Below, in pieces: positions 12,910-30,478 of a stretch of DNA of 56,832 nt. The position numbers and the translations under genes are program-made. Within the stretch, counting starts at the first letter, position 1, and each line of letters opens with the position of its first letter. The stretch spans positions 1-56,832 of the forward strand of contig SXNL01000038.1 in assembly GCA_005777185.1 (NCBI GenBank). Direction: 5' to 3'. This DNA comes from Myxococcales bacterium (GTDB lineage Bacteria > Myxococcota_A > Polyangia > Polyangiales > Polyangiaceae). The notes beneath the pieces are model-generated. The model saw nothing but the letters and a program-made list of their open reading frames with translations. It was not told the origin of the DNA and did no database searches.

Positions 12910-14214
12910 TCAGAACCCGCTCTCGAGCGTCGCGCGGTCCACGGGAGCGGCCTGAGCCGGCGCCGACTTCGTCGTCGCGGCGGGCGCGCCCTGGTCGCTG
13001 TCCTTGACCTCCGCAGCCGCGGCGGCCTTCGCCGGAGCCGCGGCGCGCTTCGCCGCCACCTGGGCCATCGCGTCGAGCCCTGCCTGGGCGCGGGCGGCGA
13101 AGGACGGGACCGCCAGCATGCGCTGGTACCTCGGGCGCGCCTGGTCGTACTGCCCCATCACGCGATAGCAGTCCGCCGCCTCCATCATCGCTTCCTGCTG
13201 CGGGTACGTCCCCACGCCGCCGACGCTGTCGAACCTTCCAACCGCGACCTGGCAGCCGCTGTGGGCCTTCACGCTCCGCCCGGCCCACAGGGCGGCGTTC
13301 TTGTCCCCGGACTTGGCCGCGTCGTCGAAGAGGCGCGTGGCCTCGGGGTAGCTTGCGCCACGGTACGCCGCCATGCCACGCGTGAAGGGGTCGTCGCCGA
13401 CGTTGCCATCGCGGCGGCCCTGGTGCACCCCGGACCCCGACTGCACCTGCGCCATCGGTGGCGGCGCGGCCGTGGCCATGGCCCGCGGTGGAGGCGACGC
13501 GGGGGTCGCGCCACGCGGCGCCCCGGCGTACGGGCCGGCGTTGGAGGGTGCGATGTCGAGGGGGTCATCCACCTGCGCGAGCGCCTTCCCGAGCGCGGGG
13601 CTCTCATCCTCCTTCTTCAGCTTCGCCGCACCCCCCCGGTCACGCTCGGCGCGGTCGTCGGCCGTCGCGGGGGAGGCGACCGCGAGCGACGCGGCCGCCG
13701 CCGCCGTCGCCGTCGCCGTCGCTGTCGCGACGCGTGCTCGCCCCTCGTCGACCCCGTGCGCCTTCGAACCGGCGGGGAGATCCAGCCTGTCCGTCTCCCG
13801 CACTTGGGCAACAGGCTCGCCCCGCTCGCTCACCGTGACGACCGAGCCGCCGCTCGAGTGGCGCTTCTGCAGGAAGAGCGTGGTCGAGCCCACCATCAGC
13901 AGGAACAGCGCCGCCATGGCCGTCTGCGGTCGCATGGCCCAGGCGCCCGCCCACGAGACCGTGCGCGAGATGCGGCTGCGGATCGGGATGACCTTCTGCG
14001 CCTCGGCGGCGGCCGCGAGGATGCGGGCCTCGAGGTCGGCCGGCGGCTCGAAGAGCGGAAGGGTGGCGAGGCGCCGCGTGGCACGAAGCCCCGCGAGGAT
14101 GGCCGCGCACCGCGCGCACCCCGAGACGTGCCGCCGGACCGCAGCACTCGTGAGCTCGTCGAGCTCCTCGTAGAGCTCGTCCAGTAGCAGCGGTTCGCAC
14201 TTCTCGCAGTCCAT
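12910..14214 (-). CDS. transmembrane anti-sigma factor with zinc-finger (ZAS-like) domain and a TPR-like periplasmic region
   Basis: Likely inhibitor of the sigma factor coded just upstream. The N-terminus has a zinc-finger of the anti-sigma type: Cys3, Cys6, then His29-x3-Cys33-x2-Cys36. One TM segment (about residues 96-115, MAALFLLMVGSTTLFLQK) separates this cytosolic part from a long low-complexity Ala/Pro linker and a C-terminal region of about 150 residues with TPR-like helices (FTRGMAAYRGASYPEATRLFDDAAK, then YRVMGQYDQARPRYQ). At 434 residues it is much longer than a plain anti-sigma factor, which suggests a periplasmic sensing or docking part. It starts 34 bases after the sigma gene, the usual order for such pairs. 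Confidence 0.85.
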   Translation of the reverse strand: MDCEKCEPLLLDELYEELDELTSAAVRRHVSGCARCAAILAGLRATRRLATLPLFEPPADLEARILAAAAEAQKVIPIRSRISRTVSWAGAWAMRPQTAMAALFLLMVGSTTLFLQKRHSSGGSVVTVSERGEPVAQVRETDRLDLPAGSKAHGVDEGRARVATATATATAAAAASLAVASPATADDRAERDRGGAAKLKKEDESPALGKALAQVDDPLDIAPSNAGPYAGAPRGATPASPPPRAMATAAPPPMAQVQSGSGVHQGRRDGNVGDDPFTRGMAAYRGASYPEATRLFDDAAKSGDKNAALWAGRSVKAHSGCQVAVGRFDSVGGVGTYPQQEAMMEAADCYRVMGQYDQARPRYQRMLAVPSFAARAQAGLDAMAQVAAKRAAAPAKAAAAAEVKDSDQGAPAATTKSAPAQAAPVDRATLESGF

Positions 14215-14248: not shown

Positions 14249-14860
14249 CTAGCGGAGCGCGCGCGCGTATTCCTCGTACTCGCTCAGCGCTTCCTGGAGC
14301 CTCTCCAGAGCGTAGCGCATCCGGCTCTTCACTGTGTTCTCCGGCACCCCGGTGATCTCGGCGATCTCCTTGAAGGGCATGTTCGACGTCTCTCGCAAGA
14401 GGAAGACCTCGCGCTGATCGTCCGGCAACCTGTCCACGGCCTGCACGATGCGCTCCTTGAGCTCCGTGCCGATCGCCTCGCGATCGGTGCTCGCCCGCGT
14501 GTCCGCGGTACGTTCCCCGAGGGTGGGACCGTCCTCGTCGCCCGTACGGGAGTGATCCAGGGAGGCGTGTTTCCTCAGCGCGTTCTTCCTGAGCTGGTCG
14601 ATGCAGAGGTTTCTCACGATGGTGTAAACCCAGGTCAGGAAGCGCGCGTCGTGCTTGAAATCCTGCGCGCTCTGCACCACCCGGACGAAGGCGTCCTGCA
14701 CGACCTCCTCGGCGACCTGCGGCGCGCGGACGTGGCGGATGGCGAAGTTGTAGAGGGCTCCCTGGTGCCGCCGGACGAGGAGCGCGAACGCCGTCTGGTC
14801 GCCGCGCTGGTAGCGGATCATCAGCGCCTCGTCGGAGACGTCGCCGCGCGGGGTGGTCAT
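14249..14860 (-). CDS. ECF-family RNA polymerase sigma factor
   Basis: Directs RNA polymerase to envelope or stress promoters. Region 2 is clear (GDQTAFALLVRRHQGALYNFAIR, then EEVVQDAFVRV and FLTWVYTIVRN) and region 4 contains LPDDQREVFLLRE and the helix-turn-helix FKEIAEITGVPENTVKSRMRYALERL. No N-terminal region 1 or 3, as expected for ECF types. An acidic linker (DEDGPTLGERTADT) lies between the domains. ATG 14860 gives 203 residues; a GTG at 14887 would add nine non-conserved residues. Directly followed by its anti-sigma gene. A candidate self-recognised promoter lies at 14952-14975. Confidence 0.93.
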   Translation of the reverse strand: MTTPRGDVSDEALMIRYQRGDQTAFALLVRRHQGALYNFAIRHVRAPQVAEEVVQDAFVRVVQSAQDFKHDARFLTWVYTIVRNLCIDQLRKNALRKHASLDHSRTGDEDGPTLGERTADTRASTDREAIGTELKERIVQAVDRLPDDQREVFLLRETSNMPFKEIAEITGVPENTVKSRMRYALERLQEALSEYEEYARALR

Positions 14861-14951
14861 CGCGATCGCCCAGGCGGGTGGAGCCACGCGCGCCCCCGGC
14901 GAGCAGCGATGCTGGGGCGAACACCGTGAACCGCATTTTCTTGGGGCATGT

Positions 14952-15323: not shown

Positions 15324-16538
15324 ATGCGACGTCAAGCTATCACCCTGGCCCTCCTCGTGCTCTCCGGTCTCGCGCCCGTCGCCCTCGCGCCGGTGGCGCT
15401 CGCGCAGGACCCCAGCGCGGCCGCGCCCCGCCTCGAGGGGAACGAGATCAAGATGCCGGGCGAGATCGAGTTCGAGAACGGCAAGGCCACCATCCGCGAG
15501 GCCGGGGCCTCGGGCAACGTCCTCAAGACGGTCGCGAAGGTGATGAAGGACAACCCGAGCATCACGAAGCTCGGGGTCGAGGGACACACCGACAACACGG
15601 GCAACGCCGAGGCGAACAAGAAGCTCTCCCAGCAGCGCGCCGAGGCCGTCGCCAAGTGGCTCGAGAAGAACGGGGTGACGAAGGATCGGCTCGCCATGAG
15701 CGGCTTCGGTGCGGACAAGCCCGTCGCGCCGAACGACACGCCCGCGAACAAGCAGAAGAACCGGCGCACCGCCTTCCAGGTGCTCGAGATCAACGGCAAG
15801 GCGCCCGGCTCGGCGCCGATCGTGCTTGCAGGCGTCGCCGCGGCGGCCGAACCCCCGCCTCCCCCGCGGCCGGCGTCGACGGGCCCCGCCGTACCCATCC
15901 CGGAAAAGCAGATGGATGGCGCGACGTACGCCGTCCGCCTCCGCGATCTCGAGGCACGCGTCGACGAGCTCAAGGACCAGATCCGTCGCAGCCACACGCG
16001 CCTCGCGCTCCTCTCGGACACGATCCTCTCCGGCGGCGCGGCGGGAACGCGATCCGAGGTCATCTACCGGAACCAGATGTCGAGCGCGTTCCGCCTCGTG
16101 AAGGTGCTCTTCGTCATCGACGGCACCGTGCAGCTGAACAAGGCCGACGACACGGGCCTCCTCGCGGACCAGAAGGAGATGTCGATCTTCAACGGGTCCA
16201 TCCCGCCGGGCGATCACACCGTGCAGGTGGTGCTCAACTTCCAGGGTAACGGGTACGGGGTGTTCACCTACCTCCGTGGCTACAAGTTCGAGGTGAAGAG
16301 CGCGCACTCGTTCACGACGGCGGAGGGCAAGACGCTCGTCCTCACGGCGACCTCGCTCGAGAAGGGAGGCGTCACCACGCCGATCGAGCAGCGCCCCACC
16401 ATCGAGTGGAACGAGAAGTTCGCGCCGCTCAACGCCGGCCCATCCACGGGTGGCGGCGGCGGAGGGGGCGGCGTGACGACGACGCCTGCACCTGCGGGCT
16501 CGGTCGGCGGTGGCTTCTCCATCGGAGGCGGCAAGTGA
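15324..16538 (+). CDS. exported OmpA-domain protein with coiled coil and unique C-terminal domain
   Basis: 404 residues. Signal peptide residues 1-27 (cut near ALA-Q). Residues about 40-150 form an OmpA/MotB peptidoglycan-binding domain: EIEFENGKATI, then LGVEGHTDNTG and the QQRAEAVAKWLEKNGV helix, ending in NRRTAFQVLE. The Asp and Arg that hold meso-diaminopimelate are present (GHTDNTG, NRR). A Pro-rich linker, a short coiled coil (about 200-225) and a 150-residue region of unknown fold follow; the end is a Gly-run flanked by Thr/Pro. The domain order is unusual: OmpA is normally C-terminal. ATG 15324 with an AAAGGGG site; the frame is open upstream but reads as shadow. First gene of the cluster; a peptidoglycan anchor role is inferred. 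Confidence 0.82.
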   Translation: MRRQAITLALLVLSGLAPVALAPVALAQDPSAAAPRLEGNEIKMPGEIEFENGKATIREAGASGNVLKTVAKVMKDNPSITKLGVEGHTDNTGNAEANKKLSQQRAEAVAKWLEKNGVTKDRLAMSGFGADKPVAPNDTPANKQKNRRTAFQVLEINGKAPGSAPIVLAGVAAAAEPPPPPRPASTGPAVPIPEKQMDGATYAVRLRDLEARVDELKDQIRRSHTRLALLSDTILSGGAAGTRSEVIYRNQMSSAFRLVKVLFVIDGTVQLNKADDTGLLADQKEMSIFNGSIPPGDHTVQVVLNFQGNGYGVFTYLRGYKFEVKSAHSFTTAEGKTLVLTATSLEKGGVTTPIEQRPTIEWNEKFAPLNAGPSTGGGGGGGGVTTTPAPAGSVGGGFSIGGGK

Positions 16539-16575
16539 GCGAGCGCCCGGGGGACGAAGGATCGCGGAGGCGAAC

Positions 16576-18951
16576 ATGAAAAAAAAGCTGCGAACCGCCC
16601 GAGTCGCGGCCGCCGCCGCGATCGCGGCCGCGTACCTCGCGGCGCCGGGCCTCGCCCGTGCCGACGCCGCCACCGCGCAGGCCGAGATCTCCGCGGTCGC
16701 GGGCGAGACGGGGTCGATCCAGGCCGCCATCGAGAAGGCGAAGAACACGAAGGTCACGGTCGAGGAGCGCATCGTCGCGGGCGAGTTCCTGTTCCACAGC
16801 AAGGACTACGTGCGCGCGAGCATCGTCTTCGGCGAGATCGTCGAGGAGTTCCCGACGACGACCCAGTCCTACCCCCACGCGCTCTTCCGCCGCGGCGAGA
16901 CGTATTACGTCACGAGGGAGTACCTCTCGGCGCGCCGGGACTACCGGGCCATCGTCGAGAAGGGCAACGAGCCAAACTTCAGCCCGTATTTCGGCAAGGC
17001 GCTCGCGCGCCTCGTGGACGTCTCGCTCCGTGTCAACGACATCAAGGGCCTCGACGAGGTCTTCGCGAAGCTCAGCATGGTGCCGCCGTCGCAGGTCGAC
17101 ACGGCCCTCACGTACGCGAAGGGCAAGGCGTACTACGCGAGGAAGGACTACTCGAACGCCACGAGCGCCCTGGCGAGCGTCCCGAACGGCACCGACTACA
17201 CCCACCAGGCGCGCTACTTCCAGGGTCTCGTGGCCCTCCGCACGACGCCCCCCGGCACGCCCGCCAGCCCCGACGGCAAGACCCGCGCGGTCCCCGCGAA
17301 CTACAAGGAGGCCGTGGCCGCGTTCAAGGTCGTTACCGACCTCCCCGGCGACACCGAGGACCACCGGCACGTCATCGACCTCGCCTGGATGGCGATCGGG
17401 CGCCTCTTCTACGAGATGGAGAGCTACACGCAGGCCGCGGAGGCGTACTCACGCGTCGGGCGCGAGTCGCCCGAGTTCGCGACGATGCTCTACGAGCTCG
17501 CCTGGGTGTACGTCCGCCTCGGCGATGTTCAGCGCGCCGAGCGGGCCCTCGAGATCCTCCAGCTCACGGATCCCGACGCGTCGTCGGTGGGCGACGGAGC
17601 CCTCCTCCGCGCCGACCTCATGCTGCGTGCCGGAGCCTTCAACCAGGCGCTGCAGGTGTACGAGGGGGTCAAGTCCACCTACGACCCGATGCGCGCGAAG
17701 CTCGAGGCGTTCATCGACGTCACGAAGGATCCCGCCCTGTACTACGACCGGCTGAGCCAGCAACAGCTCGAGGTCCTCGACCAGAACGACCAGATCCCCC
17801 CCCTCGCGGTGCGGTGGGCGCGGGAGGCGGAGGACGGGCCGCTCGCCTTTGCGGTCATCGACGACGTCAACCACTGCAAGAAGCTCATCCGGCAGTCGTA
17901 CGTCCTCGTCGATCGGCTCAATGTCATCATCACCGCGGCGAACCGGGTGCGGGCCTTCCCGGAGCTCCGCGCGGGTGAGGAGCGCGCGCTCGCCCTGCTC
18001 AACCGCGTGTCCAAGGCGCGGCTCGACATCGCGCGCGGCCTCGACGCAGCGGAGCCGGGCGAGCTCGGGGGCGAGATGGGGGAGGTACGCAGGCAGCGCC
18101 GCGCCCTCATGAGCGTGATCGACGTGCTGCCCGTGACGGACGCGAATTTCGCCGATCGCGACTTCCAGGGCACCAAGCAGTGGAACACGCTTTCGCAGGA
18201 CCTCTCCCGCCAGGTCATCGAGCTCGATCGGCTGCAGGCGCTCGTCAACGGCCTCCGCCGCGTCATGCGCGAGGGTCCGCAGCACGGCGTGACGCGAGAC
18301 CCAGCGTCGATCCAGAAGTTCAACGCGGAGATCGACGCGAACGAGAAGGAGCTCAAGAAGCGCCAGGCCGAGGTCGTCGAGCTCCGCCAGCGGATCGACA
18401 ACGGGCGTGCGCAGATCGGCCTCGGCGACGCCAGGTACCAGTCCGACGCGCTCGCGCGCATGCAGTTCCGCGACCTCCTCGACAAGGAGGTCGCGCTCGC
18501 GGCGCAGGGTAGGGCGGGCGGCGGCGCCCAGGGTTACGCCACGAGCGTCCAGCCGGTGCTCTCGCAGGCCCGGCAGGTCGAGGACCGGCTCATCGCCAGC
18601 TTCGCGCAGCTCGAGGCGGAGGTCGCACGTCGCATCCAGGGCCTCCGCGACAAGATCGAGGCGGAGCGCGTCAAGATCAACGGGTACAACATGCAGCTCG
18701 GCGCGCTCGACCGCGAAGCGCAAGACCTGGTCGGCCAGGTCGCCAAGAAGAACTTCGAGCTCGTGCGCGACCGCCTGCGCAACATCGTGCTCCGCGCAGA
18801 CGTGGGGATCACGGAGCAAGCGTGGGAGGTCCGGGAGGAGGCGCTCGAGCGCGTCCGGATCCTCCAGACGGAGCGTGCGCGGGAAGAGAACCTCCTCGAC
18901 GAGGAGCTGCGCGAGGTCCTCGACGACTCCGGCGGCGAGAAGACGAAGTGA
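16576..18951 (+). CDS. exported TPR/coiled-coil protein, 791 aa
   Basis: Signal peptide of about 30 Ala-rich residues ending ARADA. Residues about 60-330 are TPR-like helical pairs (for example EFLFHSKDYVRASIVFGEIVEE, and AKGKAYYARKDYSNATSALASV). The C-terminal half is charged and predicted helical, with a clear coiled coil (NEKELKKRQAEVVELRQRI, about residue 590) and another near the end. No catalytic motif. The start ATG 16576 follows a GGAGG site and is part of an A8 run (Lys-Lys-Lys). It lies 37 bases after the OmpA-like gene and 51 before the large TPR gene, so all three are likely cotranscribed. A periplasmic scaffold role next to a peptidoglycan-binding protein is inferred. Confidence 0.8.
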   Translation: MKKKLRTARVAAAAAIAAAYLAAPGLARADAATAQAEISAVAGETGSIQAAIEKAKNTKVTVEERIVAGEFLFHSKDYVRASIVFGEIVEEFPTTTQSYPHALFRRGETYYVTREYLSARRDYRAIVEKGNEPNFSPYFGKALARLVDVSLRVNDIKGLDEVFAKLSMVPPSQVDTALTYAKGKAYYARKDYSNATSALASVPNGTDYTHQARYFQGLVALRTTPPGTPASPDGKTRAVPANYKEAVAAFKVVTDLPGDTEDHRHVIDLAWMAIGRLFYEMESYTQAAEAYSRVGRESPEFATMLYELAWVYVRLGDVQRAERALEILQLTDPDASSVGDGALLRADLMLRAGAFNQALQVYEGVKSTYDPMRAKLEAFIDVTKDPALYYDRLSQQQLEVLDQNDQIPPLAVRWAREAEDGPLAFAVIDDVNHCKKLIRQSYVLVDRLNVIITAANRVRAFPELRAGEERALALLNRVSKARLDIARGLDAAEPGELGGEMGEVRRQRRALMSVIDVLPVTDANFADRDFQGTKQWNTLSQDLSRQVIELDRLQALVNGLRRVMREGPQHGVTRDPASIQKFNAEIDANEKELKKRQAEVVELRQRIDNGRAQIGLGDARYQSDALARMQFRDLLDKEVALAAQGRAGGGAQGYATSVQPVLSQARQVEDRLIASFAQLEAEVARRIQGLRDKIEAERVKINGYNMQLGALDREAQDLVGQVAKKNFELVRDRLRNIVLRADVGITEQAWEVREEALERVRILQTERAREENLLDEELREVLDDSGGEKTK

Positions 18952-19002
18952 GGTCCGCGTGACAGGGTGTCCGGGCCTGGGGGCTCGACGGAGATTGAGA
19001 CG

Positions 19003-22000
19003 ATGGAAAAGGTCGTGAAGAAACTTGGCTTGATGGCGCCGCGACGGAACGCTTCGCCCATGCAGGTGGCGCTCGCGGCCGCCGGCCTGCTCGTCGGCCT
19101 CGCCCTGTCCGGTGGCGATGCGGCGGCCCAGGGCGCGGACGCCGGCGCCAAGCCAGCCCCCGCGGCAAGCGGCAGCGCGGGCCCGGCGACCCCTCCGACC
19201 AGCCCGCTCGGCGCTCGCAAGCTGGCGCCCCCCGCGCCGCCGCCGTCCAGGGAGCAGGTCGCGGCCCTCGAGGCAATGAAGACGGAGATGGATGCCTACG
19301 AGAGGGGCGCCAAGGACTATCGCGACACGGTCACCACGATCATCAAGCTGCACTACGAGGCCAAGAAGCGCGAGATCCTCTCCGGGCTCGATCGCGAGAT
19401 CGTGATCGAGAAAGGCGAGCTGAAGAAGGCGCGCGAGACCGCGATCAAGCGCCTCGAGGAGTTCATCGCCACCTACTCGGGCCCCCGCGCGCAGCCGGAA
19501 GCGACGCCGGACGCCATGTACCGCTTGGCGGCGCTCTACGAGGAGCGGGCGCGCTCCGAGGACGCGACGGAGCCCCCGGAGCAGGGCCTCCGGCCCGCGA
19601 TCGCCCTCTACAAGCGCATCATCGTCGAGTACCCGAAGTACCGCGAGCTCGCCGGCATCTTCTACTTCCTCGGGCACGCATACGTCGACTCGGGTCGCAT
19701 GGACGAGGGACAGCAGGTGTGGCGCTCGCTCGTGTGCCACAACCGCTTCCCGTACCCGACGCCTCCCGACGCGAAGCGGCCGGATCGTGACAGCATCACT
19801 CCGCTGCCGCAGGATCACGACGAGGAGTACTGGAACGCCTGGCGAAACAAGTACCGGGATCCGAAGTCGATCCGCCGCGGCAACCCCGACACGACCTACA
19901 CCGAGGTCTATCCGAAGGACTGCGAGGCCATCCGGCAGCCTGGGCTCCGGCCTGGCGAGGATCCCCGGTACGTCGCCGAGATCTGGTGGCAGATTGGCAA
20001 CTGGGAGTTCGATCAGCTCGACTTCGGCAGCGGCGTGACCAAGCTCGATCCCTACAGCGTGTGGGGCTACAACCGCGCTGCGAGCGCCTACTCGCAGGCG
20101 ATGAACTTCAAGAGGCCGCCCCTGTTCGGCGTGGCGCTCTACAAGTACGCGTGGGCGCTCTTCAAGCAGCAGCGGTACGAGCTCGCGACCAAGGAGTTCA
20201 TCAAGCTCCTGAACTACACCGACGAGCAGCAGAAGCTCACGGGTGATCCGGGCGCGGACTTCCGCGCGGAGGCTTACACCTACATCGCTGGCTCGCTCAC
20301 CAACGTCGACTTCGCGGGCCCCGGGCCCGATGAGCCGTACATTCTCCGACCGGACATCATCGACACCGAGCCCCGCCCCGACGTCGTCGAGAAGAAGCTC
20401 CACATCGCGATCGACCGCGTGAAGGACCCGGCGCTCATCCCCCAGGACAAGCCCTGGACGATCGAGATCTACCGCTCGCTCGCGATCGAGTACTCGAGCT
20501 TGAACCAGTACTCGAACGCGGTCGAAGTGTACGAGATGATGCTCAAGAAGTGGCCGATGGATCCCACGGCCCCGGACATCCAGAACGCCGAGGCGGAAAC
20601 GTTCGACAAGATCCTCATGATGAAGAAGCCGGGCACGGCCGATCACGAGGCCGCGGCGGCGAAGGCGCTCGAGGCGCGCACGAAGCTCGCGAACTACATC
20701 GGCAACACGCCGTGGGTCGACGCGAACAAGGACAACCCCCCGGCCCTCCAGAACGCCGAGCGCCTCGTCGCGCGCGGCCTGCGGCAGGCGGCCGCCCAGC
20801 ACACGAACAACGGTCGACGCGACTACCAGGCCGCGAACGAGACCGGCGATGCCGTCCGGCAGCTCGATCTCCTCAGCCGCGCCGCGACCGAGTACCGGCT
20901 CGCCGCGATGGGCTGGCAGGGCTACCTCAAGCAGGACGAGAACGCGCCGGACGCGTACGAGAGCCGGTACTGGCTGGCCGATGCGCGGCACAACCAGGTT
21001 CGCATCCAGGTCATCCTCCACAAGCTCAACAAGGACAAGTTCCCCGAGCCTACGCGGAAGGAGATCGACGAGGCCCTCACCTCCGCGATCGACGTGCGCG
21101 ACTCGAACGAGGACGACCGGTTCCTCGACAACGCGGCGCTCTTCGTCGTGGACGTGGCGGACGTCGATCGCGACCTCGCCTACCAGCGCTTCGAGGACAC
21201 GAAGGGCTCCGCGGGCGTCCAGAAGCGGGACGAAGTGAAGTTCGACTCCGAGCCGGTCGCGACCCGCAAGGTCGTGCGCGAGGAGGTGCCGCCGGTCGTT
21301 CTGCAGAGCGTGACGGCCCGTGACGAGTACGTGCAACGCGTTCCGTCGCAGCTCGATGTGCAGAAGCACGCGCTGGAGTACCAGTTCTACGCGGCGGCCG
21401 TGTACTTCGTGTACGGGCAGTTCGACGTGGCGCGCTCGCGCCTCGAGCCCATGTGGAAGGAGCACTGCACAGCGGACGAGTACGGCTACCGCGCCTGGGA
21501 GAAGCTCATCACGATGAGCAACATGGAGCGCGATGCCGAGCGTTCGCGGCAGCTCGCCGAGGCGCAGAAGGCGAAGCCGTGCTGCGTGTCGGCGGACCAG
21601 TGCGCCAAGGGCACGGTCATCATCAACCCCACCATCCAGGAAGCCGCCTACATCGACGCGCGTCTCAAGTTCGAGGCCGCAAAGAAGGCGCCTCCGGGGC
21701 CGGAGCGGGAGAAGCTCTGGCGCGAGGCCGCGGGCCTCTACGAGGCCGCCCTCCAGGCTGCGCCTGCGCGCGACGAGGCCCCCGAGGCCGCGATGAACGC
21801 CGCGTTCGCCTACAAGCAGGTGGGCGAGTACAACAAGGCCATCGACCTCTACAACAAGTTCATCAGCGAGTACGGGAGCGAGGCGCTGCTGTCCAAGCTG
21901 GAGAAAGGCGACAAGAACGCCAAGGTCGCGCCGGACCCCGCGAAGTACGAGGAGCGGAAGAAGTTCCTGCGCGACGCGTTCGACGCGCTCGGCAGCACGT

Positions 22001-23250
22001 ACTACAGCTTCTTCAACTACCAGCGCGCGGCCGAGACGTACGAGAAGGTCGCGGCCAACGAGCGCTTCCCCGAGGACTACCGCCGGACGGCCGCGAAGAA
22101 CGCGATGACCTTCTACGCGAACCTCGGTCAGAAGGAGAAGATGATGGCGCAGTACCGCCTCCTCCTCAAGCTCAAGCCCGGCGCCGAGGAGAAAGCCGGG
22201 GCGGACTACCTCGCTGCCGACTACGACCACAAGCAGTGGAACCCGACGGGCTCCGATACGGGCCAGAACCGGAACTTCCGGACCAACGGCGCGGTGGCCC
22301 TCATGGGTTACTACCAGAACAACAAGGCGACGGCGGGCGCGGGCAAGTACATGGTCGAGGCGGCCTACTCGGTCGCCAAGATGCTCAAGGCCGGCGGCGA
22401 TACGACGTACCGCATCTGGCTGCGGAACACGATGAACACCTGGGACGCCTACAACCGCACCGCGCCGCAGAAGGACGGCAAGAGCGAGGCCCTCCTCCCA
22501 CCGCTCGTCGACTACGCGGCCGAGGCGGCGTTCACGCTGCTGGACGACGAGATCAAGGCCAAGTACGACACCGACGCGAAGCACAGGTACGCCGGTGCCG
22601 TCGCGGACGTCGTGGGTGAGACCGACGCGAACGGCAAGCACATCCGGGATGGCAAGTACCAGGCGAACGCGAAGGACGCCGACCGCTGGGACAAGGAGCT
22701 CGAGCGCATCGCGAAGCAGTACCCGTCGCTCGAGTGGACGCCGGCCGCGATCGCCCGTCAGGGGTCGCTCTTCGATACCCTGCGCACGGGGCTGTACAAC
22801 ACCGTTCCTGTGCCCGCGGGCTCGCTCAAGCTCTTCACCGCGAAGGAGGAGGGCTTCCTCAAGCAGCTCGAGAACAGCGGTCGCGACGACCTGATCGAGA
22901 AAGCCGACAACCTCAAGATCGCCAAGAAGGAGTTCTGGCGCGGCAAGAAGGAGAAGGAACTCGTCGGCGCGGACCAGGTCATGACCCAGCGTTACGCGCA
23001 GGCGATCGCCTACGCGCGCAAGTACAACGTGAAGAACGCCGCGGTGCAGCGCGCCGTCGCGCGTCTCGCGTACTTCACGGACATCATCGGCAACGCCAAG
23101 CTGAAGGACTACGTCACGGCCACCAAGGATCCGAACGATCCGTCGCGGACCCTCGACTACAAGGACGACATGTACGTCCAGATCCGACCGGGCCTGGTCG
23201 CCATCCCCTCGGCGAATGGTGGCGCGTCGACGCTGCCCCCCTCACCGTGA
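19003..23250 (+). CDS. very large exported TPR protein, GltD/AgmU-like by context
   Basis: 1415 residues, the longest gene here. An N-terminal hydrophobic segment (about residues 20-40) acts as signal or anchor, followed by an Ala/Pro-rich linker and a charged helix. Many TPR-like units follow, spaced across the protein: IFYFLGHAYVDSGRMDEGQQVW, YKYAWALFKQQRYELATKEFIKL, then YKQVGEYNKAIDLYNKFISEY and YYSFFNYQRAAETYEKVA. No enzyme motif. ATG 19003 has GGAG at 18990-18993; GTG 18967 is an alternative. In Myxococcus xanthus a similarly large periplasmic TPR protein, GltD (AgmU), precedes gltE, gltF and gltG in the gliding cluster; the neighbours here fit that order. Identity to GltD is inferred from size, type and order only. 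Confidence 0.75.
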   Translation: MEKVVKKLGLMAPRRNASPMQVALAAAGLLVGLALSGGDAAAQGADAGAKPAPAASGSAGPATPPTSPLGARKLAPPAPPPSREQVAALEAMKTEMDAYERGAKDYRDTVTTIIKLHYEAKKREILSGLDREIVIEKGELKKARETAIKRLEEFIATYSGPRAQPEATPDAMYRLAALYEERARSEDATEPPEQGLRPAIALYKRIIVEYPKYRELAGIFYFLGHAYVDSGRMDEGQQVWRSLVCHNRFPYPTPPDAKRPDRDSITPLPQDHDEEYWNAWRNKYRDPKSIRRGNPDTTYTEVYPKDCEAIRQPGLRPGEDPRYVAEIWWQIGNWEFDQLDFGSGVTKLDPYSVWGYNRAASAYSQAMNFKRPPLFGVALYKYAWALFKQQRYELATKEFIKLLNYTDEQQKLTGDPGADFRAEAYTYIAGSLTNVDFAGPGPDEPYILRPDIIDTEPRPDVVEKKLHIAIDRVKDPALIPQDKPWTIEIYRSLAIEYSSLNQYSNAVEVYEMMLKKWPMDPTAPDIQNAEAETFDKILMMKKPGTADHEAAAAKALEARTKLANYIGNTPWVDANKDNPPALQNAERLVARGLRQAAAQHTNNGRRDYQAANETGDAVRQLDLLSRAATEYRLAAMGWQGYLKQDENAPDAYESRYWLADARHNQVRIQVILHKLNKDKFPEPTRKEIDEALTSAIDVRDSNEDDRFLDNAALFVVDVADVDRDLAYQRFEDTKGSAGVQKRDEVKFDSEPVATRKVVREEVPPVVLQSVTARDEYVQRVPSQLDVQKHALEYQFYAAAVYFVYGQFDVARSRLEPMWKEHCTADEYGYRAWEKLITMSNMERDAERSRQLAEAQKAKPCCVSADQCAKGTVIINPTIQEAAYIDARLKFEAAKKAPPGPEREKLWREAAGLYEAALQAAPARDEAPEAAMNAAFAYKQVGEYNKAIDLYNKFISEYGSEALLSKLEKGDKNAKVAPDPAKYEERKKFLRDAFDALGSTYYSFFNYQRAAETYEKVAANERFPEDYRRTAAKNAMTFYANLGQKEKMMAQYRLLLKLKPGAEEKAGADYLAADYDHKQWNPTGSDTGQNRNFRTNGAVALMGYYQNNKATAGAGKYMVEAAYSVAKMLKAGGDTTYRIWLRNTMNTWDAYNRTAPQKDGKSEALLPPLVDYAAEAAFTLLDDEIKAKYDTDAKHRYAGAVADVVGETDANGKHIRDGKYQANAKDADRWDKELERIAKQYPSLEWTPAAIARQGSLFDTLRTGLYNTVPVPAGSLKLFTAKEEGFLKQLENSGRDDLIEKADNLKIAKKEFWRGKKEKELVGADQVMTQRYAQAIAYARKYNVKNAAVQRAVARLAYFTDIIGNAKLKDYVTATKDPNDPSRTLDYKDDMYVQIRPGLVAIPSANGGASTLPPSP

Positions 23251-23258
23251 GATCCACC

Positions 23259-24646
23259 ATGCGAAAGCTCGTCTCCATCACCGTACTCTCCCTCGCACCG
23301 CTGCTTCTGTCGGCCACGCTCGCCGCGTGCGGTGGCGACAAGCCCGAGGCCAAGGCGCCCACGGCGGGGACGGAACCGAGCGCCGATACGAGCGGGGGCG
23401 GTGCGGGGCCCGCTCCCGCGCTGCCCGCCGACCCCATCGCGGGCGGAGGAGGCGGGGGTGGCGCGACCACCGTCGTGGATGTGAACCAGTCGGGCCTCAC
23501 GGGTGCCGCGAAGGAGGCGTACCAGCGAGGCTTCCGTGCGTGGCTCGACGGCGACCTGCCGAGCGCGAAGAAGGGCTTCGCCGAGGCAGCCTCCGCGGAC
23601 CCGAAGTCGCCCGTGCCGCGGTATGCCATCGGGCTCGTCGACCAGCGAACGGGTGATCTATCCGGGGCGCAGCAGGAGTGGCGGACCGCCTTCACCATGG
23701 CGCCCGACTTCGAGGTGGCCATGGGCGCGTACGCGCTCTCCCTCGCGTCGGCGGGGCACCTCACGGAGGCGGAGACCTTCATCAACGAGAAGAAGGGCAA
23801 GGCTCCCAATTCGCCTCGCCTCCTTACGTACGCCGCCGAGGTGAAGTCGCTGCAGGGCGATCACGGCGGCGCGCAGGCCATGGCGCAGGACGCGCTCCGC
23901 CTGAACCCGGACTTCAAGGAGGCGATGGTCTGCATCGCCCGCGATCACTGGCGCGCGAGGAAGATGGATCTCGCGGAGTACGCCCTCAAGGCCATCCTCG
24001 AGGGCTTCGACGCGTCGAACCCGGCGCGCGACCCGGACAACGCGGACGCGCACCTCGTCCGCGGCCTCATCCGGCGTGACGCGGGCAAGCGGGCGTTCGC
24101 GATCAAGGACTTCGAGGCCGCGAACGCGAAGCGCCCCGACCTCGTGGAGGCGCTGATCAACCTCGGCGCGATGCGCCTGGAGGCGGGCAACGCGCAGGAC
24201 GCGCAGCCCCTGCTCGAGAAGGCGGTGCGCTACGCACCCAACAGCGCCAACGCGCACCTGAACCTCGGTGACTGCTACCGCCTCCTCGGCCGCGTCGCGG
24301 ACTCGAAGAAGGAGCTCGACACGGCGCTCGCGATGGACGCCGCGCTCGCCCAGGCGCACTACAACCTCGGGCTCCTCTACCTCTTCTCTCCGAGCGTCCC
24401 GGGCGCGAACGCGAACGAGCAGGTGGCGACGGCCATAAAGGAGCTCGAGACGTACAAGACGATGCGCGGTCCGAAGGCCATCGCCGTGAACGACGACATC
24501 GACGATCTCCTGAACCGCGCCAAGGCGAAGCAGGCCGAGCTCCGCGGGGCCGCAGCGCTGCCGCCTCCGCCCCCCCCCCTCCCGCCAGCGGAGGTGCGAC
24601 GGCGCCGCCCGCGGCCGCCGCGGGGGATGCCGGGGCACCGTTCTAG
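23259..24646 (+). CDS. TPR lipoprotein, GltE/AglT-like by context; frame changes at a C10 run
   Basis: Lipoprotein signal with Cys24 (LAAC), a Gly/Ala/Pro linker with a Gly-run, then about ten TPR helices (YQRGFRAWLDGDLPSAKKGFAEA, LINLGAMRLEAGNAQDAQPLLEKA, AHLNLGDCYRLLGRVADSKKELD). Read strictly, the frame has no stop until 24953 and runs through 44 Arg/Pro-rich, non-coding-looking codons into the next gene. With one more C in the C10 run at 24570-24579 the reading gives an Ala/Pro/Gly tail of about 21 residues ending at TAG 24644-24646, typical for this kind of protein. The end given here assumes that shift. Starts 8 bases after the GltD-like gene. Likely an outer-membrane partner of it; GltE identity is inferred. 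Confidence 0.72.
24570..24579 (+). repeat. C10 homopolymer at the 3' end of the TPR lipoprotein gene
   Basis: Ten C residues in a row, preceded by CCGCCTCCG. In frame it codes for Pro. The zero frame after it joins the TPR lipoprotein to the next exported protein; the frame reached by adding one C (or losing two) meets TAG at 24644. This makes it a candidate slippage site or a sequencing/assembly error. Confidence 0.8.
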
Positions 24647-24713
24647 CGCGAGGGGTGGTGAGAGGCCCTCGCGCTGCCCGTTTCTGTGTCAACATGTAGG
24701 TCGAGGTCACGTC

Positions 24714-24953
24714 ATGAAGAAGCTCGCGTTCGCTGCTGTCGCGCTCGCCGTCCACTCGCTCTCCCCTGCCGCAGAGGCGCAGCAGAAGGGGGGTGGCGTG
24801 ATCACCATCAACGAGGTCACGATCGTCGGGCGCGTGCAGAAGCCAGTCGCCTCGGTCGACGTGAGCAAGATCCAGCCGAAGCTCACGCTCGCCGAGCTCA
24901 GGCAGCCCTTCATCGATCGGATCGAAGAGGCGACACGCTCCGATCCGTTCTGA
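24714..24953 (+). CDS. small exported protein, 79 aa
   Basis: Signal peptide of about 21 residues (KKLAFAAVALAVHSL, cut after AEA). The mature 57 residues are compact and look ordered: VITINEVTIVGRVQKPVASV, then KLTLAELRQPFIDRIEEA. No Cys, no TM. The ATG at 24714 has GAGG upstream. It lies between the TPR lipoprotein and the TolQ-like gene; in M. xanthus the small gltF gene takes the slot between gltE and gltG, so it may be its positional counterpart, but I cannot show sequence homology. The strict reading frame of the upstream gene enters this frame directly, which could produce a fusion. Confidence 0.7.
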   Translation: MKKLAFAAVALAVHSLSPAAEAQQKGGGVITINEVTIVGRVQKPVASVDVSKIQPKLTLAELRQPFIDRIEEATRSDPF

Positions 24954-24962
24954 CCACCCAGG

Positions 24963-25604
24963 ATGCGAGGGGCTGAGAAGGCCTGTTCGCGCTCCCCGAG
25001 AAGGTCGCGAGGCGTTGTGATCACTGTTCTGGCGATCGTCGTGGCCGTCCTGTGCGTCGCCGCGAGCGTGCGCCGGCTCCTCTTCGTGCTGCCGCCCGAC
25101 GGGCTCGACACCGGTGAGATCGTCGTCGCGCTGCGCGGGGACGCGGGCCGGGCGCGCTTCCCGGGCGTCGCGTCGCGTGTGGCGAAGCTGCCCGCGGGAG
25201 CGTGGGAGCGCGAGATCTTCGCGGCGGCGTCCGAACGGCCCGCCGAGGTACGGGCCAGCTTGCTGAACGAGCAGCTCCGTGAGCGCGACTTCGACCTCGC
25301 GCGGTGGAGTCGCGTGCCGCGCGTGTGCGCGAGCATCGCGACGTCGAGCGGCCTCCTCCTCGCGACCACCGCGCTCCGCGCCGGGCTCCAGGATCCGGAC
25401 GCCCTCGCCGCGGACGTCGGGCAGCTCGTCACCTCCGGAGCCGTCGGCCAGGCGCTCGACGTGGCGATGGTCGGGCTCGCGGGTGCTGTCGCGTGCCTGG
25501 CCCTCCAGGCGAGCGCGAACCGGCTGGCCAAGGCGGAGCTCGCGGCCACCGACGAGCTCGTCGGCCGCGTGGAGGCGCTGACGGACTCAAAAAAACCACA
25601 ATGA
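24963..25604 (+). CDS. TolQ/ExbB/MotA-like membrane protein, degenerate
   Basis: 213 residues. One TM segment near the start (VVITVLAIVVAVLCVAASV, about residues 19-37), a soluble stretch of about 80 residues, then two hydrophobic helices (CASIATSSGLLLATTALRAGL and QALDVAMVGLAGAVACLALQASANRLAK). The three-helix layout and the small-residue-rich last two helices with a following charged helix resemble TolQ/ExbB/MotA stator proteins. The usual conserved GL-GTV motif is not clearly present, so proton channel activity is doubtful. It follows the 79-aa gene by 9 bases. The stop codon region includes an A7 run. Alternative: an unrelated three-TM scaffold. Confidence 0.55.
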   Translation: MRGAEKACSRSPRRSRGVVITVLAIVVAVLCVAASVRRLLFVLPPDGLDTGEIVVALRGDAGRARFPGVASRVAKLPAGAWEREIFAAASERPAEVRASLLNEQLRERDFDLARWSRVPRVCASIATSSGLLLATTALRAGLQDPDALAADVGQLVTSGAVGQALDVAMVGLAGAVACLALQASANRLAKAELAATDELVGRVEALTDSKKPQ

Positions 25605-25789
25605 TCTTCGAGGTGTGGCGGCGCGATCGGCCAGAAAAGCGGCCCGACGAGCCCGGTCCGTGTTATTTTTCGCCTCCCTTCGATTTAAGGGAACCCGCGC
25701 CCAGGTCCGGTAGTCTAACGACCTCGGTGCTCTCGTCTCGTGATCCTCACGGCTGACTCGCGCACCGGGTCACCGTGTCTGCTGGAGGA

Positions 25790-27196
25790 ATGGCCTTGAA
25801 CCAAGGAATGGGCGTACAGCCGCCGAACCGTCCCGGGCAGATGACCGCCGTGATGCGCGCCATGAGCGTCGTCGCGGGGCCGAAGGTGCTCCGCATCGGG
25901 CTCGTGCAGCGCGGGCGCATCGTCGAGGAGCGCGTCATCAAGCAGCGCACGACGGTGACGGTGGGCTCCAGCGAGAAGAACATGTTCGTCGTGCCGGTCC
26001 CCGCGAACATGCTGCCGGCGCAGTTCAAGCTGTTCGAGCTGATCAACAACGACTACTTCCTCAACTTCACCGACGGCATGCAGGGACGGGTCGCGCTGGC
26101 GACCGGCATCACCGACATCGCCGCGCTGCGCGGACAGGCGAAGCGCGTCAACAACGTGGCGCAGGTGAAGCTGAGCGAGGAGGCCCGCGGAAAGGTCGTC
26201 ATCGGCGACTGCACGTTCCTCTTCCAGTTCGTCACACCGCCGCCGATCCAGCCGCGGCCGCAGCTCCCGCTCGCCGTCAAGGGGCTCACCAACCAGATCG
26301 ACTGGGCGCTCACGATCATCGCGGCGTTCAGCTTCCTCCTGCACTTCGGGTTCGTCGGCGCCATGTACTCGGACTGGTTCGACTCCGTGGTCAGTGACGG
26401 CATCGATGTGGGCCTGCTCGTCGACCGCAACCCGAACGTGCCGGCCGTGCAGGTCAACGAGCCGACCGACGCGACGGCGACTGCCGCGGCGACTTCGACG
26501 GCCGCGCCCACGGCGACGGCCGGGAACACGAAGAGCACCGGCGGCGCTGCCGGCCCGAAGGGTGCCGTGAGCGAGGCCAAGGCGGCGGCGCTCGCGGCGC
26601 AGGCCGACGCGATGCAGATGGCGATGCTCGCGTCGCTCGCGGGTGGTAGCTCGGTGCAGGGCGCGCTCAACCGCAGCGACATCCCGCCGGTCGACCTGAG
26701 CGGCGCGGCCGCGTCCGGCGCCGGCGTGTCTCCGGGTTCCGGCGACCTCCGCTTCGGATCGGGCGGCAGCCCCGTTCAGGGCCGTGGCAGCGGCCTCGCG
26801 GGGCTCGGCGGCGGGACGGGCGGCGGCGGGACGGGCGGCGCGGGCGTGGAGCGCCGGATCGAGGGGCCGCGCGGCGACGCCCAGGTGGGCGGCAGCACGG
26901 CGACCGTGCCGATCTCCGACGCCGATCGCGTGATCGCGGGTCTGCGCGGCAGGTTCCGCCAGTGCTACCAGCAGGGGCTCAACTCCGATCCCACCATGCA
27001 GGGCCGCGTGATGATCGTCGCGAAGGTCCAGCCGAACGGTGAGGTCGCGAGCGCGGACATCGGCTCGAACACGGGCCTCTCCGCCGGCGTCGCCGCGTGC
27101 ATCGCGCGGCACGTGAAGAACGCCCAGTTCTCGGCCCCCGGTGGCGGCGGCTCGACAATCCAGATCCCGGTCACGTTCGTCCAGCAGAACAAGTAG
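25790..27196 (+). CDS. FHA-like/TM/AgmX-PglI-tail protein, GltG-like
   Basis: 468 residues. N-terminal region (about 20-150) resembles an FHA domain: LRIGLVQRGRIVEERVI, TVTVGSSEKNMFVV, then FKLFELINNDYFLNF. One TM segment (about 170-190) is followed by a long Ala/Thr/Gly-rich periplasmic linker. The C-terminal 110 residues (VIAGLRGRFRQCYQQGL, GRVMIVAKVQPNGEV, CIARHVKNAQFSAPGGG, IPVTF) match the TonB-like AgmX/PglI C-terminal domain found in gliding proteins GltG and GltJ. No zinc ribbon or GYF domain, so it is closer to GltG (PglI). Start is uncertain: GGAGGA at 25784-25789 is too near ATG 25790; TTG 25796 and GTG 25775 are alternatives. It follows a 185-base gap and may have its own promoter. 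Confidence 0.8.
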   Translation: MALNQGMGVQPPNRPGQMTAVMRAMSVVAGPKVLRIGLVQRGRIVEERVIKQRTTVTVGSSEKNMFVVPVPANMLPAQFKLFELINNDYFLNFTDGMQGRVALATGITDIAALRGQAKRVNNVAQVKLSEEARGKVVIGDCTFLFQFVTPPPIQPRPQLPLAVKGLTNQIDWALTIIAAFSFLLHFGFVGAMYSDWFDSVVSDGIDVGLLVDRNPNVPAVQVNEPTDATATAAATSTAAPTATAGNTKSTGGAAGPKGAVSEAKAAALAAQADAMQMAMLASLAGGSSVQGALNRSDIPPVDLSGAAASGAGVSPGSGDLRFGSGGSPVQGRGSGLAGLGGGTGGGGTGGAGVERRIEGPRGDAQVGGSTATVPISDADRVIAGLRGRFRQCYQQGLNSDPTMQGRVMIVAKVQPNGEVASADIGSNTGLSAGVAACIARHVKNAQFSAPGGGGSTIQIPVTFVQQNK

Positions 27197-27541: not shown

Positions 27542-28108
27542 ATGCGATTTCGGACCAGCCTGAAGTGGATTCTCGGTGTCGCGATCATGGTGTACGCCGT
27601 CACGCCTGCAGGCGCGCAGACGGTGCCCGCGGGTGGTCAGTCCGTCCCGTTCAAGGGTAAGACCGCGCTCAACCCTCAGGAACAGTCCGAGCAGGCTCAG
27701 ATGGTGCTCAGGCGCATGGACGACCAGCGCGCGGCCGTCAACAAGCAGTTGCAGACGGCGAAGCAGCAGCGCGACGCGATCAAGATAACCTGCCTGGAGG
27801 ACAAGCTCACCCAGATGGACGTCACGAAGAAGACCGCAAAGCAGGCAGGCAATGACCTCGCGAACGCGGTCCGCACCGGCAACAGCGAGGCGGCGGGGCA
27901 CCACTTCACCATCGTGACCATCTCGCAGGGTCGGGTCGACGAGCTCGCCGCCGCCGCAAACCAGTGCATCGGCGAGGACACAGCGTTCGTCGGGGCGACC
28001 AACGTCACCACGACCATCACGGACGTGCCGCCCACCGAGGACGGCTATCCGCCACTCGATCCCACGCTCGTATCGCTTCCACCGGCCTGTACGAGTTGTC
28101 AGCTGTAA
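27542..28108 (+). CDS. exported protein of unknown family with a coiled-coil segment
   Basis: 188 residues with a clear signal peptide (SLKWILGVAIMVYAVTPAGA, cut before QT). Residues about 45-120 are helical and charged (QEQSEQAQMVLRRMDDQRAA, then KQQRDAIKITCLEDKLTQ), probably a coiled coil. Four Cys are spread through the mature part; two (CTSC) are three residues apart at the very end. I do not recognise the family. Its promoter, AGGAGG site and ATG are all well placed. It precedes the porin and OPX genes with a 129-base gap, so a role in polysaccharide export or a regulator of it is possible but not shown. Confidence 0.75.
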   Translation: MRFRTSLKWILGVAIMVYAVTPAGAQTVPAGGQSVPFKGKTALNPQEQSEQAQMVLRRMDDQRAAVNKQLQTAKQQRDAIKITCLEDKLTQMDVTKKTAKQAGNDLANAVRTGNSEAAGHHFTIVTISQGRVDELAAAANQCIGEDTAFVGATNVTTTITDVPPTEDGYPPLDPTLVSLPPACTSCQL

Positions 28109-28237: not shown

Positions 28238-29713
28238 ATGAACCGACGACGAACAGATGGTGTGGGCGGCCGCGGGGTTCAACTGAGCGTCGCTGCCATG
28301 GTTCGCGTCGGAGCGGGCGCGGGTGCGCTACTCGCCGTGCTCGGCGTGACGAGCTCGGCAGAAGCGCAGGAGTGGCTCAAGGATCGTCGATACTCGGAGG
28401 GCTCGGGCGTCAAGACCGGGGACTTCGAGATCCATCCCGGCATCGCCGCCGAGATGGGGTACGATTCGAACTGGTTCCTCCGTACCGACAAGGACTGCAA
28501 GACCCCTGCGAACCCGACGGGGGGCTGCCTCAACGGCCCGCCTTCGGCCGAGGTGCTCGCGGCGGGGATGCTCCGGGTGACGCCTTCGCTCAGCATAAAC
28601 TCGGCGCAGGCCCTGCAGCGGACCGAGGGCGGACCTGCACCGGATCCGTCCGTCCGGTTCCGCGCGGCCGTCGACGCGACGTACCGGCAGTTCTTCGGGC
28701 CGCAGGACGTCAGCCGGCAGAGTAACCTGGGCGGACACGCCAACGCGCGCGCGGACATCCTGCCCGGCAAGCCGTGGGGGGCGGCCGTGTTCGCGGGCTA
28801 CACGCGCACCATCCAGCCGCAGGCGCTGGGGAACCCGGATGCCTCGTTCAACCGGAGCGACATCAACGCGGGAATCGACCTGATCGCGCAGCCCAACAGC
28901 GGTACGCTCGACTTCAAGGTCGGCTACGCGTTCTACGCGGCGCTGTTCGAGCAGAGCGAGGGCGTGCCGTTCACGAACTACACGCACGAGATCTCCGCCG
29001 GCGATCGCTGGAAGTTCACGCCGCGCACGTCGATCTTCCAGGACACGCAGGCTCGTTTCACGACCTTTCCGCACGCGGACCGCTCGGTGAACTTCCTCAA
29101 CGACTCCACCCCGTTGAAGACGCGGTTCGGGCTCAACGGTCTCATCACCTCGCGCATCTCGACGCTCGTCGCCGTCGGCTACGGCACGACGCTCGCGGGC
29201 AACGGCTCGTCCCCGGCGACGCGGCAGTTCGACAGCGTCACGGCGCAGGCCGAGGGTACGTTCTTCCTGTCCCCGAACCCGGCCTCTGCCGAGCCCGGCT
29301 CGGTGTCGCTCGCGTTGTCGTCCTTCACGCTCGGGTACTCGCGCGACTTCTCGCAGAGCTACTTCGGCAACTTCTACGGATCGGACAAGGGCTACGGCAA
29401 GCTCTCGTACTTCTTCGCGGGCAAGGCCATCCTCTCCCTGGGAGCCTCCGTGTCCGCGCTCCAGTACCCCGACGTGTTCGTGGTGCCCGCGAAGGGTGCA
29501 CCCCCCGTGCTCGGGCAGACGGCGTTCACGAACATCTTCGTGTCGTCCACGCTCTTCGGCGAGTACCGGCTGACGGATGCCTTCGGCATCAACGCCACCA
29601 TCGACTACGGCAAGATGATCAGCGACGTCCAGCTGAGCCAGGGCGGGCCCTTGCCGTTCCACCTGAGCTGGCAGCGGTTCCAGGGCTTCCTGGGCGTTCG
29701 TTACTTCCTGTGA
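28238..29713 (+). CDS. outer-membrane beta-barrel porin, Wzp-like (polysaccharide export)
   Basis: 491 residues with a signal peptide (about 1-44, cut after SAEA). The mature part has alternating hydrophobic/polar strands ending in aromatic residues, for example AAVFAGYTRTIQ, FKVGYAFYAALF and LALSSFTLGYSRDF, and the chain ends in RYFL, a terminal aromatic/hydrophobic signature for barrel assembly. A GIAAEMGYDSNWF motif near the N-terminus is of the type seen in outer-membrane barrels linked to polysaccharide loci. In M. xanthus, Wzp porins pair with short OPX proteins lacking their own outer-membrane helix; here the next gene is such an OPX protein. Wzp identity is inferred from that pairing. 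Confidence 0.75.
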   Translation: MNRRRTDGVGGRGVQLSVAAMVRVGAGAGALLAVLGVTSSAEAQEWLKDRRYSEGSGVKTGDFEIHPGIAAEMGYDSNWFLRTDKDCKTPANPTGGCLNGPPSAEVLAAGMLRVTPSLSINSAQALQRTEGGPAPDPSVRFRAAVDATYRQFFGPQDVSRQSNLGGHANARADILPGKPWGAAVFAGYTRTIQPQALGNPDASFNRSDINAGIDLIAQPNSGTLDFKVGYAFYAALFEQSEGVPFTNYTHEISAGDRWKFTPRTSIFQDTQARFTTFPHADRSVNFLNDSTPLKTRFGLNGLITSRISTLVAVGYGTTLAGNGSSPATRQFDSVTAQAEGTFFLSPNPASAEPGSVSLALSSFTLGYSRDFSQSYFGNFYGSDKGYGKLSYFFAGKAILSLGASVSALQYPDVFVVPAKGAPPVLGQTAFTNIFVSSTLFGEYRLTDAFGINATIDYGKMISDVQLSQGGPLPFHLSWQRFQGFLGVRYFL

Positions 29714-29878
29714 TCGACGAGATCGTCGCCTCGCGACGGTCGCTCGACACACTCCGGAAGGACGGACGCGACCGTCGGCATGATGCTGGGTGAACGATCG
29801 GGAGCCAGGACGCCACCAATGGGCGTGATCGTGAACCGCTTGATCGAATCGCCACGGTGGCGTATGGAAGTGCCCGTG

Positions 29879-30478
29879 ATGCATCGTGTTTTCGCTCGTT
29901 TTCTCGTGCTGGCGCTGGTCGTCGCGATGGTGGCGTGCTCGTCGAAGCGCCCCCCGCCTCCGCGCAACCTGCCCGTCGCGACGCCGAGCACGACGGTGGG
30001 ACCAGGGGACATGTTCGAGGTCCACGTGATGGGGGAGAACCTGCCGAAGGACTTCCGGGTCCAGCCGGACGGGAGCATCAGCTTCCCCTACCTCGACAAG
30101 CTCCAGGTCGCGGGGCTCGAGCCCCAGCAGATCGAGGAGCTCATCAAGACCAAGCTCAAGGCGGCCAAGATCCTCCTGGAGCCGCAGGTCTCGGTCGTGG
30201 TTCGCACCTACACCTCGAAGAAGGTCACCGTGATCGGCCAGGTCACCCGGCCGGGCAACCTCCCGTTCACCGAAGGGATGAAGCTCGTCGAGGCCATCTC
30301 GCTATCCGGCTGGTTCACACCCATAGCCGACAGCAACCACATCATCCTGACGCGGCAGGTCGTGGACAAGAAGACCGTCACGGCCATCATCAGCGTCGAC
30401 GCCATCACCGACGGCGCGCAGCAGGACATTCCGCTCCAGGCCGGGGACACGATCAAGGTGGAGCAGAAGGTCTTCTGA
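29879..30478 (+). CDS. polysaccharide export (OPX/Wza-family) lipoprotein, short class
   Basis: 199-residue lipoprotein with Cys20 (VAMVAC). The mature part has the Poly_export domain (VGPGDMFEVHVMGE, QPDGSISFPYLDKLQVAGL, PQVSVVVRTYTSKKVTVIGQV) followed by one SLBB-like domain (RPGNLPFTEGMKLVEAISLSGW and GDTIKVEQKVF). It is far shorter than E. coli Wza (about 380) and has no C-terminal helix to cross the outer membrane, so it should need a partner porin, which the preceding gene supplies. ATG 29879 is chosen for its GGAAG site; in-frame starts further upstream would place charged residues before the signal. No Wzc, Wzx, Wzy or glycosyltransferase genes flank it. Confidence 0.9.
   Translation: MHRVFARFLVLALVVAMVACSSKRPPPPRNLPVATPSTTVGPGDMFEVHVMGENLPKDFRVQPDGSISFPYLDKLQVAGLEPQQIEELIKTKLKAAKILLEPQVSVVVRTYTSKKVTVIGQVTRPGNLPFTEGMKLVEAISLSGWFTPIADSNHIILTRQVVDKKTVTAIISVDAITDGAQQDIPLQAGDTIKVEQKVF

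Follow-up and report, generated by a model that had tools for sequence, protein, structure and literature searches.

Gene content of the locus

The window, by which we mean the whole stretch of DNA analyzed (56,832 nucleotides; Myxococcales bacterium, assembly GCA_005777185.1, contig SXNL01000038.1), contains seven genes that run in one direction at 15324-27196. A first-pass annotation had assigned these bounds to a compact envelope cluster resembling the Glt gliding machinery. The genes are real, but barrel and OPX genes further downstream had been missed: after GltG, and on the same strand, lie genes for a three-helix protein (27542-28108), an outer-membrane barrel (28238-29713), and an OPX lipoprotein (29864-30478). 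On sequence comparison, the conserved cassette is larger than first noted and extends to 30478. The features of the locus are as follows.

12910-14214, minus strand: putative anti-sigma factor, divergent from the cassette (named by eye from the sequence)
14249-14887, minus strand: putative ECF-type sigma factor, divergent from the cassette (named by eye from the sequence)
15324-16538, plus strand: head protein, with an unnamed conserved domain at about residues 195-375 and an N-terminal OmpA domain
16576-18951, plus strand: GltC homologue, an exported-looking TPR protein (NF033756, E=3.2e-20)
19003-23250, plus strand: GltD homologue, a large exported-looking TPR protein (alignment and tree)
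23259-24646, plus strand: GltE-type TPR lipoprotein (NF033758, E=1.2e-18; position)
24714-24953, plus strand: GltF/CglF-type small exported-looking protein of 79 aa, a conserved family
24963-25604, plus strand: diverged TolQ/AglR-like protein of 213 aa (hhalign), occupying the motor slot
25790-27196, plus strand: GltG homologue (NF033760, E=4e-16; NF033768, E=6.3e-17; trees)
27542-28108, plus strand: exported three-helix protein with two invariant Cys (alignment and structure model)
28238-29713, plus strand: outer-membrane barrel, a Wzp-like porin (18 strands in the model)
29864-30478, plus strand: short OPX lipoprotein with Poly_export and SLBB domains, WzaB-like (PF02563, E=3.4e-19; SLBB; lipobox by eye)

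Homologues of GltC, GltD, GltE, GltF, and GltG span 16576-27196. The earlier proposal of a GltD-GltE-GltF-GltG order is borne out by profile matches, by an end-to-end GltD alignment, and by trees. The same annotation had taken the 791-aa protein encoded at 16576-18951 for merely another TPR protein and had listed GltC as absent from the window; this protein is in fact the GltC homologue. Its score against NF033756 is 72 bits, under the equivalog cut-off of 450, and a profile of window-type GltC matches the GltC of Nfs-type clusters at 103-115 bits. GltA and GltB are, as had been stated, not in the window. The 19003 product could be aligned over its full length with GltD-type proteins from other cassettes. 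The 23259 product is exported-looking, with a lipobox identified by eye, and its match to the NF033758 GltE model is partly generic TPR signal. The GltE reading frame slips into the GltF frame at a C10 tract (24570-24579), while the other frame stops naturally at 24644-24646; because relatives encode GltE and GltF separately, the slip is probably an assembly or sequencing error. The Myxococcus eversor counterpart of the 24714 product matches the CglF model NF033764 (E=5.4e-5), and the GltF-type profile also matches Nfs-type clusters, weakly. The 25790 product, originally described as an FHA-like/TM/PglI-tail protein, does have a cytoplasmic domain, one membrane segment (by eye), and an AgmX/PglI tail (NF033768), but an FHA domain was not matched in Pfam. 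Its match to the GltG model begins at model position 196, beyond the FHA region, which is listed at 26-90 in Myxococcus xanthus GltG.

The head protein has a signal-like N terminus (by eye) followed by an OmpA domain (PF00691, E=1.1e-22) that covers residues 50-147 (15471-15764 in the window). The first-pass annotation regarded this domain as the cluster's own OmpA-like anchor. The N-terminal domain is present as described, but it is rejected as a defining part: a motif scan found no OmpA motif in about 40 head-protein counterparts, Pfam OmpA was matched in 0 of 10 counterparts tested, and of the proteins sampled, that of the window alone carries the domain. In two loci (L061 and L108), at about 15-17 kb, the head protein gene is present in two tandem copies.

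The three-helix protein was modeled with a core pLDDT of >95 and is encoded, with few exceptions, between GltG and the barrel; it has no Pfam or NCBIfam match and no significant PDB match. The barrel model has 18 strands at moderate confidence (mean pLDDT of 72), its PDB matches being outer-membrane barrels only, generic and with no specific relative among them. WzpB-type porins are likewise reported to be 18-stranded (PMC9603273, PMC9601211), and the window barrel is syntenic with barrels at the WzpB position in Myxococcus. The adjoining OPX open reading frame has a further possible start at 29780, giving a length of 204-232 aa, and its product is short, without a long C-terminal extension. 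Elsewhere in the window, at 48945-50366, a protein matches PF08014 (named for microtubule-associated tyrosine carboxypeptidase) with an E value of 6.9e-127.

Conservation of the cassette

Profiles built from the cassette genes recovered the same order in other Myxococcota families, namely, head protein-GltC-GltD-GltE-GltF-[motor]-GltG-helix protein-barrel-OPX, and this order is also seen in named Myxococcus, Archangium, and Citreicoccus records and related ones. Within the window's own taxonomic order, the arrangement of divergent sigma/anti-sigma genes, head protein, GltC, GltD, GltE, GltF, slot protein, GltG, helix protein, barrel, and OPX is mostly kept. Where loci of this order have room for it, a sigma factor counterpart is mostly present upstream, and the anti-sigma counterpart adjoins it in most of these cassettes with enough contig; the pair was not seen at the Myxococcus cassettes examined.

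The wide search across genomes used GltG as the query. We counted as eligible those loci with GltD and GltG present and at least 4.5 kb of sequence beyond GltG. The barrel and OPX genes both lay just beyond GltG in 38 of these 52 loci, with one only in 4 and neither in 10; these counts are non-independent, the genomes being related and many of them metagenome assemblies. The head-protein domain was found upstream of GltD in 90 of the 91 loci with room. With dozens of loci showing the same gene order, the arrangement is not due to chance. The 10 loci in which the barrel and OPX are unrecognized indicate, in turn, that the Glt part can exist without them.

Branch membership and the Myxococcus counterpart

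In GltG trees, the cassettes of the window's order, those of other families, and the Myxococcus cassette group apart from the Glt G1, Nfs, and G5 sequences (support of 98/96 and 100/99), and a quick GltD tree agrees with this split (support of 99); all trees are midpoint rooted only. The G1 label was assigned from a GltG model score of >1000 bits, the Nfs label is inferred from a single C-D-E-F-G cluster with the second-best score, and the G5 label from being the remaining copy, one Archangium sequence so labeled grouping with G1 in the tree. Both GltG and GltD of the window group with the Myxococcus cassette copy, and the window's scores against the Glt models are far under the equivalog cut-offs. 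The cluster first described as gliding-like is thus a Glt relative, but one outside the G1 gliding, Nfs, and G5 branches. The window's genome (82% complete, 413 contigs) also encodes a second, different GltG on contig C205, which belongs to the sister group of Myxococcus Glt (100/99) and has GltC, GltD, and GltE matches close to it. Second GltG-like genes are found in the window's order (L051-L053, L060, and L062-L065), none of them with cassette neighbors. A record titled Comamonas sp. KCTC 72670 (L187, BNCN01000011.1) clusters with Myxococcus in both GltG and GltD, and its label looks wrong.

The order head protein-GltC-GltD-GltE-GltF-GltG-helix protein-barrel-OPX, present in the window, matches that of the G4-type cassette: judged by gene order, the Myxococcus cassette fits the M. 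xanthus G4 cluster plus wzpB/wzaB. Counting locus tags from the OPX gene as 1915 and the barrel as 1916 places GltD at 1922, provided that GltG and the helix protein have one small gene between them. The G4 gltD in Luciano et al. (PMC3169522) is MXAN_1922, and MXAN_1915/1916 are wzaB/wzpB (PMC7310880, PMC9603273, PMC9601211). The M. xanthus sequence itself (L160) ends in GltE, and the adjacency proposed for that species is read across from M. eversor, M. qinghaiensis, and the record titled KCTC 72670.

Motor genes and the slot protein

In 13 sampled loci from other families, the interval separating GltF from GltG is occupied by one TolQ-like and two ExbD-like genes. In the window's order, this slot mostly holds one protein of about 200 aa and is empty in a few cassettes. 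The slot protein family was compared with AglR families by hhalign and matched both cassette AglR (E=1.7e-9, 187 columns) and displaced AglR (E=1.1e-10, 194 columns) with probabilities of 96-97. Controls with reversed, column-shuffled, and unrelated alignments gave E values of 0.2-1, which rules out the 24963 product being a chance hydrophobic protein and bears out the original description of a degenerate TolQ-like protein between the small protein and the PglI-like one. Pfam and NCBIfam scans assigned this 213-aa product to no family. By eye, its third membrane segment is without the AglR Thr pair. A full AglRQS-type motor is not in the window cassette, as had been noted; the slot has one diverged TolQ-like protein with no adjacent ExbD partner.

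A check of the genome placed complete motors on contig C412 (L255), where one M2-like and one M1-like set are found. The same arrangement of two divergent sets, back to back at a separate locus, is present in six sampled relatives; in the window's order, such pairs were seen at L244-L249 and L255. An AglR tree gives set A one Myxococcus motor as its sister (98/88) and set B the remaining one (100/100). We take the sister of set B to be aglRQS because its subunits match the AglQ and AglS lengths in Table 1 of Luciano et al. (162 and 194 aa). The sister of set A would then, by elimination, be MXAN_3003-3005 (M2), which is the only complete motor set besides aglRQS in M. xanthus (PMC3858216). The motor serving the window cassette is most likely M2-like and encoded in trans.

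The motors also differ in a membrane residue. Among 32 loci with cassette motors (a single contig being counted twice), 26 carry Asn instead of the membrane Asp in the first ExbD-like subunit, while the second retains Asp; L172 and L190 have the reverse pattern. This pattern was noted for the cassette motors of L097-L105, L110, L111, L114, L115, L120-L128, L132, L135, L137, L157, L169, L173, and L194. Displaced motors (C412 and Myxococcus) have Asp in both ExbD-like subunits.

Polysaccharide genes beyond OPX

The barrel and OPX genes downstream of GltG point to polysaccharide export. Wzc/Wzy-type polysaccharide genes adjoin the OPX end in three sampled families, represented by G020 and G019 from the window's order and by G112 from a further family. 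All three have Wzc-type co-polymerases (GNVR and AAA_31; Wzz in two) and Wzy_C proteins, along with CapD-type enzymes, UDP-sugar dehydrogenase, glycosyltransferases, and sugar transferases in differing combinations; Wzx itself was not identified among these genes. In the window, no polysaccharide synthesis genes adjoin OPX, and an asparaginase is found there instead. In M. xanthus, wzaB is required for BPS (PMC7310880). A limited literature search found no paper linking G4 or M2 to WzaB/WzpB, and BPS has never been reported to require G4.

Proposed function

Comparison establishes gene content, homology, branch membership, synteny, and motor displacement. We consider it moderately probable that the cluster is a G4-type Glt transducer that is energized in trans and drives or positions polysaccharide export. 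Motor-assisted export or placement is proposed because Glt homology predicts force passing from stator to outer membrane, where an OPX lipoprotein and a porin are the usual neighbors. In this scheme, a motor of the AglRQS type (proton-driven and M2-like, on another contig) would drive GltG at the inner membrane, and GltG would pass force through periplasmic GltC, GltD, GltF, and the head protein, together with the lipoprotein GltE, to the short OPX lipoprotein and its 18-stranded porin. There, the force might energize, gate, or position Wzx/Wzy-type polysaccharide export. In the window's species, the head protein may additionally grip peptidoglycan via its added OmpA domain. Assembly into a single complex, service by the motor in trans, a polysaccharide cargo, and this role for force are points we infer from the comparisons above. 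The cassette-borne motor of other families and the grouping of set A on C412 with the presumed M2 count in favor of this explanation, as do the phylum-wide synteny with barrel and OPX (both present in 38 of 52 loci), the 18-stranded barrel model, and the polysaccharide genes beyond OPX in G020, G019, and G112. Precedents are AglRQS, which drives Nfs and the spore-coat polymer (PMC3858216), and the BPS requirement for wzaB (PMC7310880). Counting against it are the absence of any report that BPS requires G4, the unlinked motor in the window's order, the TolQ-like protein without an adjacent ExbD partner, the loci without a recognized barrel and OPX (10 of 52), and the lack of synthesis genes beside OPX in the window. 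The earlier phrase "variant trans-envelope machine" remains a fair description.

Could the cluster instead move the cell, as a compact variant of Glt? The homology and order of GltC-D-E-F-G are those of a gliding machine, but the GltG and GltD trees put the window outside the Glt branch and the genome has a separate Glt-branch cluster on C205, on which grounds we reject a gliding function. Mutation of the M. xanthus G4 gltD (MXAN_1922) also left motility unaffected (PMC3169522), and we regard gliding as very improbable here. A polysaccharide export or placement machine is more likely than a gliding engine because this branch sits beside genes for an outer-membrane sugar-polymer exit channel throughout Myxococcota.

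Two other readings were weighed. The machine might place or process polysaccharide at the surface, as Nfs does, with OPX and porin alone sufficing for export through the outer membrane. There is precedent in AglRQS, which drives Nfs and the spore-coat polymer around the spore (Wartel et al.; PMC3858216), and M. xanthus EPS export is described with an OPX protein and a barrel but no linked Glt set (PMC9601211). However, OPX and porin are integral to the window-type cassette; by contrast, the spore-coat OPX (MXAN_3225) and nfs (around MXAN_3374) have distant locus tags. We judge surface placement unlikely, though worth keeping in view. The TolQ-like and OmpA domains of the window, and the 10 of 52 loci whose Glt part is without a recognized barrel or OPX, would also suit an envelope-integrity or Tol-Pal-like system to which OPX and porin are neighbors without common function. 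Gene order and strand are nevertheless maintained in many families, and the OmpA domain is peculiar to the window's protein among those sampled, which makes such a system improbable. Returning to motor-driven export, a broader version, which we advance tentatively and would sooner doubt than accept, is that the G4 cassette works as a stator-driven machine for polysaccharide secretion, complete in itself, whose motor, transducer, and translocon co-evolved across Myxococcota, with gliding and spore-coat wrapping as later offshoots.

Comparison with known systems

The Agl-Glt gliding machine of M. xanthus (G1, G2, and M1) has a homologous GltC, D, E, F, G layout. In contrast to it, the window lies on a different branch, has no FHA match, is without GltA, B, H, I, J, or K, and is joined to OPX and a barrel. 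The Nfs spore-coat machine of M. xanthus is a Glt-type transducer that handles polysaccharide and has C-D-E-F-G in one cluster; the window differs in its branch, and descriptions of nfs place no OPX and porin genes in its cluster. D1D2/Class 3 OPX proteins paired with an 18-stranded barrel (WzaB-WzpB, EpsY-EpsX, and ExoA-ExoB) resemble the window in its short OPX lipoprotein beside a barrel. For such translocons, joining to a Glt transducer or motor has not been described (PMC9603273, PMC7310880, PMC9601211), whereas the window has the Glt join.

The Myxococcus cassette that fits M. xanthus G4 together with wzpB/wzaB (MXAN_1916/1915) shares the window's GltG/GltD branch and its cassette order. 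Relative to G4, the window adds the TolQ-like protein between GltF and GltG, the OmpA domain of the head protein, and the divergent sigma/anti-sigma genes. The G4 cluster and the M2 motor had no assigned function in Luciano et al. (2011; PMC3169522), and in Islam et al. (2020) wzaB is termed orphan-like, lying 1 Mb away from the remaining pathway genes. We propose that a phylum-wide cassette unites these loose ends, with G4, M2, and WzaB/WzpB forming one machine. If so, proton-driven force would be tied to polysaccharide export, suggesting a possible origin of the gliding machine.
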